Below, piece after piece: positions 35,326-39,908 of a stretch of 64,000 bases of DNA. The DNA comes from Mycolicibacterium goodii (lineage in GTDB: Bacteria; Actinomycetota; Actinomycetes; Mycobacteriales; Mycobacteriaceae). The first letter of the stretch is position 1; each line of letters begins with the position of its first letter. Where the stretch lies: contig NZ_CP012150.1 in assembly GCF_001187505.1 (NCBI RefSeq), positions 2,418,001 through 2,482,000 of the forward strand. Reading direction: 5' to 3'. The notes under the pieces were generated by a model. That model saw only the letters and a list, made by a program, of their open reading frames with translations. It did no database searches and was not told the origin of the DNA. The translations under genes were made by a program, and so were the position numbers.

Positions 35326-36750
35326 ATGACGAAACCCGAACGGGTCGAAGAACAGCCGCAGTTGCGGCGGGTGATGGGCCCCGGCCTTCTGTTGTTGTTC
35401 ATCGTCGGAGACATCCTCGGCACGGGCGTGTACGCCCTGACCGGTCAGGTCGCCAAAGAAGTGGGCGGCGCGGCCTGGCTCCCCTTCCTGGTGGCGTTTG
35501 CGGTCGCGACGATCACGGCGTTCAGCTACCTGGAACTGGTGACCAAGTATCCGCAGGCCGCAGGTGCTGCGCTGTACGTGCACAAGGCTTTCGGCATCCA
35601 CTTCGTCACGTTCCTGGTGGCGTTCGTGGTGATGTGCTCCGGAATCACATCGGCCTCAACGGCTTCGCGGTTCTTCGCGGCCAATTTCTTCACGGCGTTC
35701 GACTTCAGCTGGGGCAAGGCCGGCGTGGTCCTGTTCGCGCTGCTGTTCATGGCCCTCATCGCCGCGGTGAACTACCGCGGCGTCAGTGAGAGCGTCAAGC
35801 TCAACGTCTTCCTCACCTTCGTCGAGATCACCGGTCTGGCGCTGGTGATCCTGGTGGGGCTCTGGGCTTTCACCGGCGGCAACGCCGACATCGACTTCGC
35901 CCGTGTTGTCGCCTTCGACACCCCGTCGGACAAGGGCGTGTTCCTCGCGGTCACCACCGCGACATCGCTGGCGTTCTTCGCGATGGTCGGGTTCGAGGAC
36001 TCGGTCAACATGGCCGAGGAGACCAAGGATCCGGTGCGCATCTTCCCGAAGGTGCTGTTGACGGGCCTCGGCATCGCCGGACTCGTCTACGTCATCGTGT
36101 CCATCGTCGCGGTGGCGCTGGTGCCCGTCGGTGAGCTTGCCGGCAGCGAAACCCCGCTCGTCGAGGTGGTCAAGGCCGGTGCGCCCGGGCTGCCGATCGA
36201 GACCATCCTGCCGTTCATCTCGATGTTCGCGGTGTCCAACACCGCACTGATCAACATGCTGATGGCCAGTCGCCTGATCTATGGCATGTCGCGTCAACAC
36301 GTGCTGCCGCCCGTGCTCGGCGTCGTGCATCCGCGCCGGCTCACCCCGTGGGTGGCCATCGTGTTCACCACGCTGATCGCGTTCGGCCTCATCTTCTACG
36401 TGTCGGCCTTCGCCAACAGCAGCGCCATCGCGGTGCTCGGCGGCACGACATCGCTGTTGCTGCTCGCGGTGTTCGCGATGGTCAACATCGCGGTCCTGGT
36501 GCTGCGGCGCGACGTCCGCGAGCCCGGCACGCACTTCAAGACCCCGACGGTGCTGCCGGTCATCGGCTTCATCACCTCGGCATATCTGGTGCTGCCGCTG
36601 TCGGGACGCCCGGTGCAGCAGTACATCCTGGCGGGCATCCTGATCGCGATCGGCATCGTGCTGTTCGGCGTCAACACGCTCATCAACCGACGCATCGGCA
36701 TCACAGGTGCGGGCACCATCGACCCGACGCACCTGACCGACGCCCCCTAG
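35326..36750 (+). CDS. APC-family amino acid permease
   Basis: 474 residues with about 12 membrane helices. The first helix has the unwound APC signature FIVGDILGTGVYALTG (about residues 26-41); FFAMVGFEDSVNMAEETKDP is the conserved helix 6 to loop region. It transports an unknown amino acid or amine with protons. GGAGGGGG precedes the ATG by 4 bases. Its TAG stop shares CTAG with convergent relZ. Confidence 0.93.
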   Translation: MTKPERVEEQPQLRRVMGPGLLLLFIVGDILGTGVYALTGQVAKEVGGAAWLPFLVAFAVATITAFSYLELVTKYPQAAGAALYVHKAFGIHFVTFLVAFVVMCSGITSASTASRFFAANFFTAFDFSWGKAGVVLFALLFMALIAAVNYRGVSESVKLNVFLTFVEITGLALVILVGLWAFTGGNADIDFARVVAFDTPSDKGVFLAVTTATSLAFFAMVGFEDSVNMAEETKDPVRIFPKVLLTGLGIAGLVYVIVSIVAVALVPVGELAGSETPLVEVVKAGAPGLPIETILPFISMFAVSNTALINMLMASRLIYGMSRQHVLPPVLGVVHPRRLTPWVAIVFTTLIAFGLIFYVSAFANSSAIAVLGGTTSLLLLAVFAMVNIAVLVLRRDVREPGTHFKTPTVLPVIGFITSAYLVLPLSGRPVQQYILAGILIAIGIVLFGVNTLINRRIGITGAGTIDPTHLTDAP

Positions 36751-38471
36751 CCGCGCAGCTTCTCGAATCGGTTGCGCAGCAACGCAACCCGATGGGTGTT
36801 GCCCTGCAGGCCGATGTAGCGGTCGCCGAAGACCGCGAGCAGTGCGTCATCGAGGCGACGCACCGCGCCCGGCGGATACCGGTAGTCCATCAGCCGGTTG
36901 ATCTCGTCGGTGTCGACCGAGTCCAGCACGGCCGCAAGCGCATCGAGGGAAGTGATGCCGAGCTCGAGCAGCAGCCCCGAGATCCAGCCATAGTGGTCGG
37001 TGCGCGACCAACCGGCGTCGGCGTAGCGGTTGCCCAGGTAGGTCGCGAGCACCGGGCCGGGGATGCGCGAGTCCGGCGAGAACTCGGTCTCCCCCTCGGT
37101 CATGGTGGTGCGCAACCGGTTCCGGATCTCGGAGAACTCGCGGTCGGCCAGCTCGAGCAGCCCGGCGGCCAGGGTGAACCGGCGATCGAGTTCGGTGACG
37201 TGCGCGGCAGGGATCGAACCCTTGTAGCGGATATCGTGTTCGAACTCGGCCCACGCGTGCTGCAGCACCGTGCGCACCTGGATCGACGCGGGCTGCTGCT
37301 CGCCTTCCATGCCGACCAGCAGATGCCTGCTGGCATAACCCCACCGGCCCTCGCGCGCGGTCTCGGCGCCCATGTCGCGGTCGTCGAGCAGACGCATCTC
37401 GTCGGCCAGCAGATTGGCCACCGCGTCGACATCCTCACGCAGGTAGGTGATGACGCGCAGCCCCACCTGATCGGTGATCTCCACGAGCGGGTCGGTGTAC
37501 AACGGTTCGCCGCCTGCGGTCCGCACCGCCTTCTCCGCGAACGACTCCACGGTCTTGGTGCGGGCCGTGATGCTCAGGTAGTTGATGCCCGCGTCGTCGA
37601 GCAGACCCGTCACGTGCTCGTGGTAGCGCGCCGTGGCACTGACCAGGGCGGGCCGCCGCGCGGCGTACTCGGCCACCGCGGGCGGCAACGCCGCGTGCGG
37701 GGTCAGGTCCTGCGGCAGCGTCGGCGTCAGGATGTAGCCGGTCTCGATGTCGCCGTAGATCGTGATGTCGTCGGGCCTGCGGGTGGCATACAGCGCGATG
37801 TACGCGCACAGCACCGCGTCCACGGGATCCTCGGCGCGGCGCAGCTCACTCTTGGTCGACGCGCCCTCCACCGCGGTGTACAGCTGTTGCCACTGCTCGC
37901 TGGTCGACACCTTGAGCGGCACCTCCGCGTGGCGCAGCCCCGCGATCAGCTCCATCAACCGCAGCAACTCCGAACGCAGCAGTTCGAAACTGCGGCCCGG
38001 CTTGGCCTTGTATTTCAGCGTTCGACCCAGCCGGAACAGCGCCACCGACGCGGCGTGCGGATAGATCTCCAGCGCGCGGCGCGGCCGCTCCGACCGCGGG
38101 TCGAGATCCAAATCGAGCGCCGTCGCCAACCGCGCGCCGCGCGGGGTGCCCGCGAACTCGGGCTTGCCGGTGTTCGACGGGTGCGCACCGGCCTCGTACG
38201 GACGGAAGTCCCGGTTGAGCGCGGCCTCGGCCGGGCGGTTGCCGGTCGGGTTCTCCACGATCAGCGGGGCGTCGATACCTGCCACACACTCCGCACCCAC
38301 GAACGGCTCGAGCGCGGCGATGATGCTGTCGTCATCGGTCGCGGCCGACAGGTGCACGAGTTGGCCGTCGGCGTCGACGACCGCGACGCCGGTGGGCTTG
38401 CGCTCTCCCCAGGCGAGGTCGATGCCGAGGAAGTACGGGGGGTGGTGCATGTCTCCAGCCTGCCTCATCAA
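36747..38471 (-). CDS. relZ: RelZ: RNase HII-like domain fused to a (p)ppGpp synthetase domain
   Basis: 574 residues from ATG 38471 (ATG 38450 would give 567). Residues about 8-250 form a DUF429/RNase-H-like domain with GIDLAWGERKPTG and AGIDAPL carrying acidic active-site candidates. Residues about 290-420 are a RelA/SpoT synthetase: RTKTVESFAEK, ITDQVGLRVI, GYASRHLLV, and IQVRTVLQHAWAEFEHD. No HD hydrolase, TGS or ACT domain is present, so it should only synthesise alarmone. This architecture is that of M. smegmatis MS_RHII-RSD (RelZ), reported to combine RNase HII and (p)ppGpp/pGpp synthesis. A helical C-terminal domain follows. Confidence 0.93.
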   Translation of the reverse strand: MMRQAGDMHHPPYFLGIDLAWGERKPTGVAVVDADGQLVHLSAATDDDSIIAALEPFVGAECVAGIDAPLIVENPTGNRPAEAALNRDFRPYEAGAHPSNTGKPEFAGTPRGARLATALDLDLDPRSERPRRALEIYPHAASVALFRLGRTLKYKAKPGRSFELLRSELLRLMELIAGLRHAEVPLKVSTSEQWQQLYTAVEGASTKSELRRAEDPVDAVLCAYIALYATRRPDDITIYGDIETGYILTPTLPQDLTPHAALPPAVAEYAARRPALVSATARYHEHVTGLLDDAGINYLSITARTKTVESFAEKAVRTAGGEPLYTDPLVEITDQVGLRVITYLREDVDAVANLLADEMRLLDDRDMGAETAREGRWGYASRHLLVGMEGEQQPASIQVRTVLQHAWAEFEHDIRYKGSIPAAHVTELDRRFTLAAGLLELADREFSEIRNRLRTTMTEGETEFSPDSRIPGPVLATYLGNRYADAGWSRTDHYGWISGLLLELGITSLDALAAVLDSVDTDEINRLMDYRYPPGAVRRLDDALLAVFGDRYIGLQGNTHRVALLRNRFEKLRG

Positions 38472-38489: not shown

Positions 38490-39908
38490 GTGACGATTCC
38501 GAATGTTCTGGCCAGCCGCTACGCCAGCGACGAGATGGTTGCCATCTGGTCGCCGGAAGCCAAGATCATCGCCGAGCGGCGGTTGTGGCTGGCCGTGGTG
38601 CGCGCCCAGGCCGAGCTGGGCGTCCCGGTGCCCGACGGCGTCGTCGACGACTACGAGCGGGTGCTGGACAACGTCGACCTGGAGTCCATCGCCGCACGTG
38701 AGCGCATCACCCGGCACGACGTCAAGGCGCGCATCGAGGAGTTCAACGCGCTCGCCGGGCACGAGCACGTGCACAAGGGCATGACGAGCCGCGACCTCAC
38801 CGAGAACGTCGAGCAACTGCAGATCCGCCAGTCGCTCGAGCTGGTGTTCTCCCACGGCGTCGCGGTGGTGGCCCGCCTGGCCGAACGCGCCGTCGTGTAC
38901 CGCGACCTGGTGATGGCGGGCCGCAGCCACAACGTCGCGGCCCAGGCCACCACGCTGGGCAAGCGCTTCGCGTCGGCCGCCGAGGAGACCCTGCTGGCGC
39001 TGACCCGGCTGCGCGAGCTGATCGACCGCTACCCGCTGCGCGGCATCAAGGGCCCCATGGGCACCGGTCAGGACATGCTCGACCTGTTCGGCGGCGACGC
39101 AGGCAAACTCGCCGACCTGGAGCGGCGGGTCGCCGAATTCCTGGGATTCACCGAGGTTTTCACCAGCGTCGGGCAGGTCTACCCGCGTTCGCTCGACCAC
39201 GACGTGCTGTCGGCGCTGGTGCAGGTGGGCGCAGGCCCGTCGTCGCTGGCGCACACCATCCGGCTGATGGCGGGCCATGAACTGGTCACCGAGGGCTTCG
39301 CGCCCGGCCAGGTCGGCTCGTCGGCCATGCCGCACAAGATGAACACCCGCTCATGTGAGCGCGTCAACGGCCTGCAGGTGGTGCTGCGCGGATACGCGTC
39401 GATGGCCGCCGAACTCGCAGGCGCCCAGTGGAACGAGGGCGACGTGTTCTGCTCGGTGGTGCGCCGCGTCGCACTGCCCGACGCGTTCTTCGCGATCGAC
39501 GGGCAGATCGAGACGTTCCTGACCGTGCTCGACGAGTTCGGCGCCTACCCGGCGGTGATCCACCGCGAACTCGACCGCTACCTGCCGTTCTTGGCCACCA
39601 CCCGCATCCTGATGGCCGCGGTGCGCGCCGGTGTCGGACGCGAGGCCGCCCACGAGGTGATCAAGGAACACGCCGTCGCCGTCGCGCTGGCGATGCGTGA
39701 GCAGGGCAAGGAACCCGATCTCATCGACCGGCTGGCCAACGACCCGCGGCTGCCGCTGGACCGGGTGGCCCTTGAGGCCGCGCTCGAAGACAAGCAGGCG
39801 TTCACCGGTGCGGCGGGCGATCAGGTCGACGGTGTGGTCGCCGCGGTCGGTGAACTCGTGAGTCGTTATCCCGAAGCCGCGAAATACACCTCGGGCGCAA
39901 TATTGTGA
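38490..39908 (+). CDS. purB: Adenylosuccinate lyase
   Basis: 472 residues from GTG 38490, divergent from relZ with 18 bases between. Fumarase/aspartase superfamily signature [14 protein letters not shown] (Ser of the flexible loop in GSSAMPHK), plus the helices with [12 protein letters not shown] and [14 protein letters not shown]. It acts twice in purine synthesis: SAICAR to AICAR and adenylosuccinate to AMP. The frame is open far upstream into relZ, but that extension is opposite-strand shadow. Length matches mycobacterial PurB. Confidence 0.97.

Follow-up and report, generated by a model that had tools for sequence, protein, structure and literature searches.

The relZ locus of Mycolicibacterium goodii

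In a 64,000-nucleotide stretch of the Mycolicibacterium goodii genome (contig NZ_CP012150.1, positions 2,418,001 to 2,482,000; hereafter the window), one gene on the reverse strand, relZ, encodes a DUF429 domain and a RelA/SpoT-type alarmone synthetase in a single polypeptide. Judged by its sequence, the product is orthologous to RelZ of M. smegmatis, also named MS_RHII-RSD, and hence an already known enzyme. The open reading frame (ORF) spans positions 36747–38471 and comprises 574 codons counted from a TTG. An ATG start candidate is located at 38448–38450 and is preceded by GGAG (38453–38456 in plus-strand coordinates), a probable ribosome-binding site for the reverse-strand gene. Because of this GGAG, the stop codon found between the TTG and ATG positions in four of the nine mycobacterial loci compared (L004, L006, L023 and L051) and the size of the two closest proteins in the database (567 amino acids each), relZ probably starts at the ATG, occupying 36747–38450 and encoding 567 amino acids. 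Residue numbers given here count from the TTG; subtracting 7 yields the ATG numbering.

Pfam assigned residues 16–241 to DUF429 (E=1.9e-25) and residues 304–418 to RelA_SpoT (E=1.1e-15), both above the cut-off, and the same search of RelZ detected no HD hydrolase family at E≤1. The preliminary description of this DNA had proposed such a fusion without a hydrolase domain, had read the motifs RTKTVESF and LQHAWAEFEHD in the translation, and had compared the architecture with that of MS_RHII-RSD; each of these points held, the last with the same domain order, the same lack of a hydrolase domain and close database relatives. The two nearest database proteins were 94% and 92% identical to RelZ, and the best 120 of the 3435 proteins found at E≤1e-20 all carried both Pfam domains (120/120). 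A pattern scan of genome contigs returned 522 related stretches; the best 80 of these all spanned both domains and included Nocardioides, Mumia, Ornithinimicrobium, Georgenia, Kineosporia and Nakamurella, so that a search of actinobacterial genomes, as that description had suggested, found the fusion outside mycobacteria as well. RelZ architecture or activities have been described for M. smegmatis and some other actinobacteria in the accessible parts of PMC7591505, PMC3153485, PMC5566576, PMC4300193 and PMC4429107. The fused form is also in print for Actinobacteria (PMC3985635) and, outside mycobacteria, for Marmoricola (PMC5566576), and the available text of PMC4429107 (Table 1) lists an M. 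tuberculosis DUF429 homologue, MT0800.

The position of the ORF between an amino-acid permease gene and purB was confirmed. The purB gene (38490–39908, forward strand; TIGR00928, 454.6 bits versus a cut-off of 326.2) is divergent from relZ, with 39 bp separating the two starts, and the permease gene (35326–36750, forward strand) is convergent and overlaps relZ by 4 bp, the CTAG at 36747–36750 being the overlapping stop codons of the two genes. Because relZ diverges from purB and converges with the permease gene, on gene order it shares an operon with neither. No sigma-70-like promoter or terminator pattern was found. RelA_SpoT occurs twice in the genome, in a long Rel and in relZ, alongside one DUF429 gene and one RnhB.

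Domains and active-site residues

The DUF429 domain (residues 13–245; 37737–38435, reverse strand) was predicted to adopt an RNase H-like fold, which structure comparison placed nearest to RuvC-type resolvases as a moderate match at ~14% identity; on this model, its architecture is probably that of a junction resolvase. Foldseek alone ranked TEFM first, with TM-scores ≤0.45, and Pfam RuvC (PF02075) did not match RelZ. Seven acidic residues (D18, D67, E82, E135, E214, D215 and D218) were kept in 110/110 relatives, and D215xxD218A of RelZ may correspond to DAADA in a RuvC of the same genus, RuvC resolvases having four metal-binding acids of which the last lie in a DxxDA motif.

This domain had been described as RNase HII-like, and at the level of protein family that part of the preliminary description was not supported. 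The published name and activity of MS_RHII-RSD would suit a true member of the RNase HII family, but we consider such membership very improbable: Pfam RNase_HII (PF01351) gave no match in RelZ at E≤1, RelZ has no DEVGRG motif such as that of the separate RnhB encoded in this genome, the predicted fold is nearest to RuvC, and PMC3985635, in the portion available, places DUF429 with RuvC and other resolvases. Profile alignment by hhalign found no likeness of DUF429 to RnhB (26/30 loci used), though none to RuvC either (23/28 used, 30 fetched), and RNase HII was not among the 50 structure matches listed for DUF429, which does not rule out an RNase HII fold. In print, 'RNase HII' denotes an activity; as a family label it is not supported.

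Structure prediction, which had been proposed as a check, bore out the synthetase (residues 258–457 by fold; 37101–37700, reverse strand) as a RelP-type synthetase fold. The preliminary description had named loss of the catalytic residues as grounds for refutation, and this applied in part: nine of the ten RelP active-site residues mapped onto RelZ were kept, including the Asp Mg ligand (D334), but the Glu Mg ligand of RelP and RelQ was replaced by Ser396 (codon at 37284–37286, reverse strand). This position was never Glu in 93 fused relatives, and Ser also occupied it in 11/51 other synthetases. The absence of Glu from the fused relatives fits the Mg-independent alarmone synthesis reported for the M. 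smegmatis enzyme, and we infer from the residue mapping that loss of this ligand underlies it. A stand-alone synthetase (gene 42, GTP pyrophosphokinase), whose product is 36% identical to the synthetase part of RelZ, was observed in the M. abscessus prophage records MW584157.1 and MW584209.1 (26082–26579).

Two further regions complete the chain. DUF429 genes lacking the synthetase (solo DUF429) end in the linker region (residues 246–265; 37677–37736, reverse strand), and there the order of identities also changes from one half to the other (see below). The C-terminal region (residues 472–574; 36750–37058, reverse strand), which the preliminary description overlooked, was helical in the structure model and conserved, with a mean consensus match of 0.74 over residues 476–574 versus 0.82 for the synthetase core; it was present in 14/14 synthetase-only loci (in L133 in part only) and matched no named family.

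Probable exchange, and loss, of domains

The two halves of RelZ appear to have different histories. The M. goodii DUF429 domain had a mean identity of 53.9% to 8 fortuitum-type rows (type B) and 66.5% to 44 type A rows, whereas the order was reversed for the synthetase (83.7 to B versus 76.1 to A), the C-terminal region (83.8 versus 67.7) and purB (93.4 versus 88.2), and purD, TetR and P450 also ranked B above A. No A row reached the B mean in any of these six segments, and 4/23 A rows did so for the permease; of the eight segments around relZ, only DUF429 reversed the ranking, with the switch around residues 255–265. In trees of 50 chosen rows, type B formed one clade of the DUF429 tree (100/100), which the synthetase and C-terminal data rejected (approximately unbiased (AU) test, p_AU 1.5e-4), and the M. 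goodii protein grouped with M. wolinskyi and the 8 B rows in a clade of the synthetase and C-terminal tree (97/92), which DUF429 rejected (p_AU 4.5e-5); these p-values are optimistic because the A and B groups were named after a first look at the data. The purB tree (rows >300 residues) agreed with the synthetase tree (L133 and L134 left out) and not with DUF429; with the synthetase named first, and type B needed 3 changes when mapped on the former gene and, on the purB tree, 5 changes, of which at least 4 were forced. Because the trees of the two halves conflict and DUF429 alone reverses the identity ranking, the DUF429 half seems to have been exchanged between species, by recombination within conserved flanks, namely purB and the synthetase. 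In the openly licensed literature searched, we found no mention of domain exchange or of Ser396, which does not show their absence from print.

Hidden paralogy or uneven rates might instead have produced the A/B split, given that the B clade of DUF429 has a long stem (0.51) and that DUF429 lies away from purB in two genomes (those of L107 and L108), so a second copy is possible. However, both types occupy the same place beside purB, DUF429 occurs once in the M. goodii genome, a B clade is rejected by the synthetase data with purB in agreement, and a rate change alone would not unite rows that the synthetase and purB separate. We therefore regard this explanation as improbable and favour exchange of the front half. 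The two exceptional genes themselves (same-genus genomes G345 and G337) encode solo DUF429 proteins that are 46–49% identical and carry long unrelated tails.

Either half can also be missing. Among 297 genomes of the genus, 252 matched RelZ at E≤1e-10 and 45 did not; about 90 of the matches listed were fused (89 nearly whole and one cut by a contig end), and the remaining matches listed among the 252 genomes fell within residues 2–286. Many mycobacteria keep DUF429 alone at the same site, in genes that mostly stop just past the domain. In 25 genomes searched for RelA_SpoT domains, a single one was present in 14/15 DUF429-only and 3/3 no-match genomes, the exception being the DUF429-only genome G049 with a second, and two were present in 7/7 fused genomes; because the domain is single in 14/15 DUF429-only genomes, the synthetase is, on this domain count, lost rather than moved. 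Outside mycobacteria, the DUF429 half is the missing one, with synthetase-only rows scattered among the fused (5 changes, at least 3 forced). Named species with the closest relatives of the A-type solo protein include M. shigaense, M. parmense, M. triplex and M. asiaticum; for the B-type protein they include M. flavescens, M. rutilum and M. lehmannii. On the purB tree, L113, which lacks the synthetase, sits among fused rows, apart from the other six A-type solos.

Solo DUF429 is constrained, with a median ratio of nonsynonymous to synonymous substitution (dN/dS) of 0.20 for type A (L113 left out) and 0.36 for type B, as expected for purifying selection; the corresponding medians were 0.08–0.19 for fused DUF429, 0.05–0.08 for the synthetase and 0.04–0.09 for purB (median dS 0.35–0.76 across these sets). 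We infer that, where a species lacks the synthetase, DUF429 functions on its own. Four residues, G22, L85, E105 and P233, are invariant or almost invariant across 94 fused rows but relaxed in the 15 solo ones, and are candidate contacts between the halves.

Some solo proteins merit separate mention. The proteins P0179, P0219, P0227 and P0248 (~245–260 amino acids), in which DUF429 alone was found, are named 'GTP pyrophosphokinase' in public records, a name that seems to have been carried over from the fused form. L102, L103, L105 and relatives of ~285 amino acids are B-type solos with a conserved C-terminal tail. A 16-residue likeness joins the tail of L102 and L105 to the last synthetase helix (0/300 shuffles scored as high, the best being 1–2 points lower), and it was too weak to call the tail a synthetase remnant.

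The locus was also classified across genomes, with flanks of 4–6 kb examined per locus (1.5 kb for L092 and L093). The 124 loci comprised 60 fused with purB, 13 DUF429-only with purB, 33 fused without purB, 14 synthetase-only and 4 DUF429-only without purB; 12 short loci had been dropped (the window's own copy and 11 represented by longer versions), and the identical pairs L004/L085, L029/L118, L053/L088, L056/L092 and L061/L093 were kept in the counts of 60 and 33. A purB gene >80% identical lies beside the relZ-type gene in the 60 fused and 13 DUF429-only loci, and purB was found in 0/33 non-mycobacterial fused loci within these flanks. Because the 13 loci without the synthetase keep the adjacency, purB is, on locus comparison, an inherited neighbour. 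The linkage sought in the preliminary description thus exists in mycobacterial-type loci and not in the non-mycobacterial fused loci, and the purine-nucleotide context that it drew from purB was not supported. Functional coupling with purine supply is scarcely credible: relZ lies next to purB in divergent orientation in 60/60 mycobacterial-type fused loci, but that class is itself defined by purB, and both the 0/33 and the 13 loci speak against coupling. Outside mycobacteria, where 33 fused and 12 synthetase-only loci were screened for neighbours recurring in at least 4 of them, the recurrent clusters were just relZ itself and apparent antisense ORFs, a weak result given poor ORF picking. Three of the 60 purB-linked fused loci (L033, L034 and L038) came from metagenome-assembled genomes (MAGs) with other titles; because L034, titled as an Acidobacteria bacterium MAG, has a relZ–purB–P450 locus of mycobacterial type, its bin title or contig binning is probably wrong.

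Function and relation to known systems

Two other origins or roles were set aside. The PADLOC model PDC-S44, a phage-defence candidate, matched RelZ (E=4.7e-81); because 7/7 DUF429 proteins tried also matched, PDC-S44 acts as a label of the DUF429 domain, and on this ground the match was discounted as a sign of a defence gene. No definition of PDC-S44 was found in the accessible parts of the literature on defence candidates. A mobile origin was likewise rejected, as no phage or plasmid record held the full fusion: among 50,697 phages and 72,556 plasmids, none covered 80% of RelZ in one place, and partial matches occurred in 16 phage and 28 plasmid records (20 of the 28 listed). In IMG/VR, 52 loci matched from residue 239 (567-residue count) onward only, with patterns that were drawn from the synthetase and C-terminal parts and are blind to a lone DUF429.

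We are fairly confident that the gene encodes a chromosomal RelZ whose single chain joins a RuvC-type, RNase H-like DUF429 domain to a small alarmone synthetase and a helical C-terminal region, with front-half exchange and solo function as probable parts of its history; most likely it is a chromosomal stress enzyme. RelZ of M. smegmatis cleaves RNA:DNA hybrids and R-loops and synthesizes pGpp, ppGpp and pppGpp (PMC7591505, in the part available). As its orthologue, the M. goodii enzyme would have the same activities, and because both would reside in one chain, one protein could both clear a nucleic-acid obstacle and raise the alarmone. Several observations weigh against this picture. In the accessible text of PMC7591505, an R-loop had no effect on synthesis, which speaks against a simple R-loop-to-alarmone switch, and the isolated purified halves were inactive, which speaks against solo function; single-stranded RNA inhibited synthesis in the same source. 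At Ser396 the metal site differs from that of RelP/RelQ, B-type solo DUF429 is under weaker constraint than fused DUF429, and the full-length model (predicted TM-score, pTM, 0.50) does not fix the domain arrangement.

It is also conceivable, if rather unlikely, that DUF429 serves chiefly to sense nucleic acids and gate the synthetase, and is not a working nuclease in the cell, with the A and B types recognizing different partners. RuvC-type folds bind branched nucleic acids, the front half was apparently exchanged while the synthetase was kept, and the four candidate contacts are relaxed in solo rows; yet all seven conserved acids persist, solo rows included, hybrid and R-loop cleavage is published, and the R-loop result of PMC7591505 counts against gating too. 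A broader sensor–effector scheme seems improbable: a RuvC-like front domain would recognize a varying nucleic-acid structure or an invader-made partner and be traded between mycobacteria as an allelic cassette, and the synthetase, its chemistry unlike that of RelP and RelQ as one metal ligand is gone, would be an optional effector, repeatedly lost to leave the front domain working alone.

The enzyme itself is known; what merits further attention is its evolutionary pattern and Ser396. The apparent exchange of the nuclease-like half points to a recognized target that varies between species; the solo DUF429 proteins that occur naturally at this site bear on the statement in print that each half is inactive by itself, and they are present in mycobacteria described as having no RelZ; and the missing Mg ligand makes the reported Mg-independent synthesis directly testable.

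Among known systems, RelZ/MS_RHII-RSD (MSMEG_5849), of the actRel subgroup with DUF429, has the same DUF429–synthetase order and no hydrolase domain (accessible parts of PMC7591505, PMC3153485 and PMC5566576); no difference from it was established, the M. smegmatis sequence itself not being identified among the matches. RuvC-type resolvases share the predicted fold of the front domain but differ in lacking a Pfam-level match and in their ~14% identity. Long Rel/RelA/SpoT proteins possess the HD hydrolase domain that RelZ lacks at E≤1. RelP and RelQ have Glu where RelZ has Ser396 and lack its extra N- and C-terminal parts, and RelZ scored 49 bits against the NCBIfam YjbM model, far below the cut-off of 320. 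RelS of Corynebacterium glutamicum is an actRel without DUF429 (PMC5566576, available part); its likely orthologues, L133 and L134, share the synthetase and C-terminal region with RelZ at 32–44%, as family-level relatives, but have no DUF429 and, unlike RelZ, keep the Mg-ligand Glu. CapRel and toxic small alarmone synthetases differ in setting: the phage, plasmid and IMG/VR results contained no full RelZ fusion, and RelZ is instead chromosomal and syntenic in mycobacteria.
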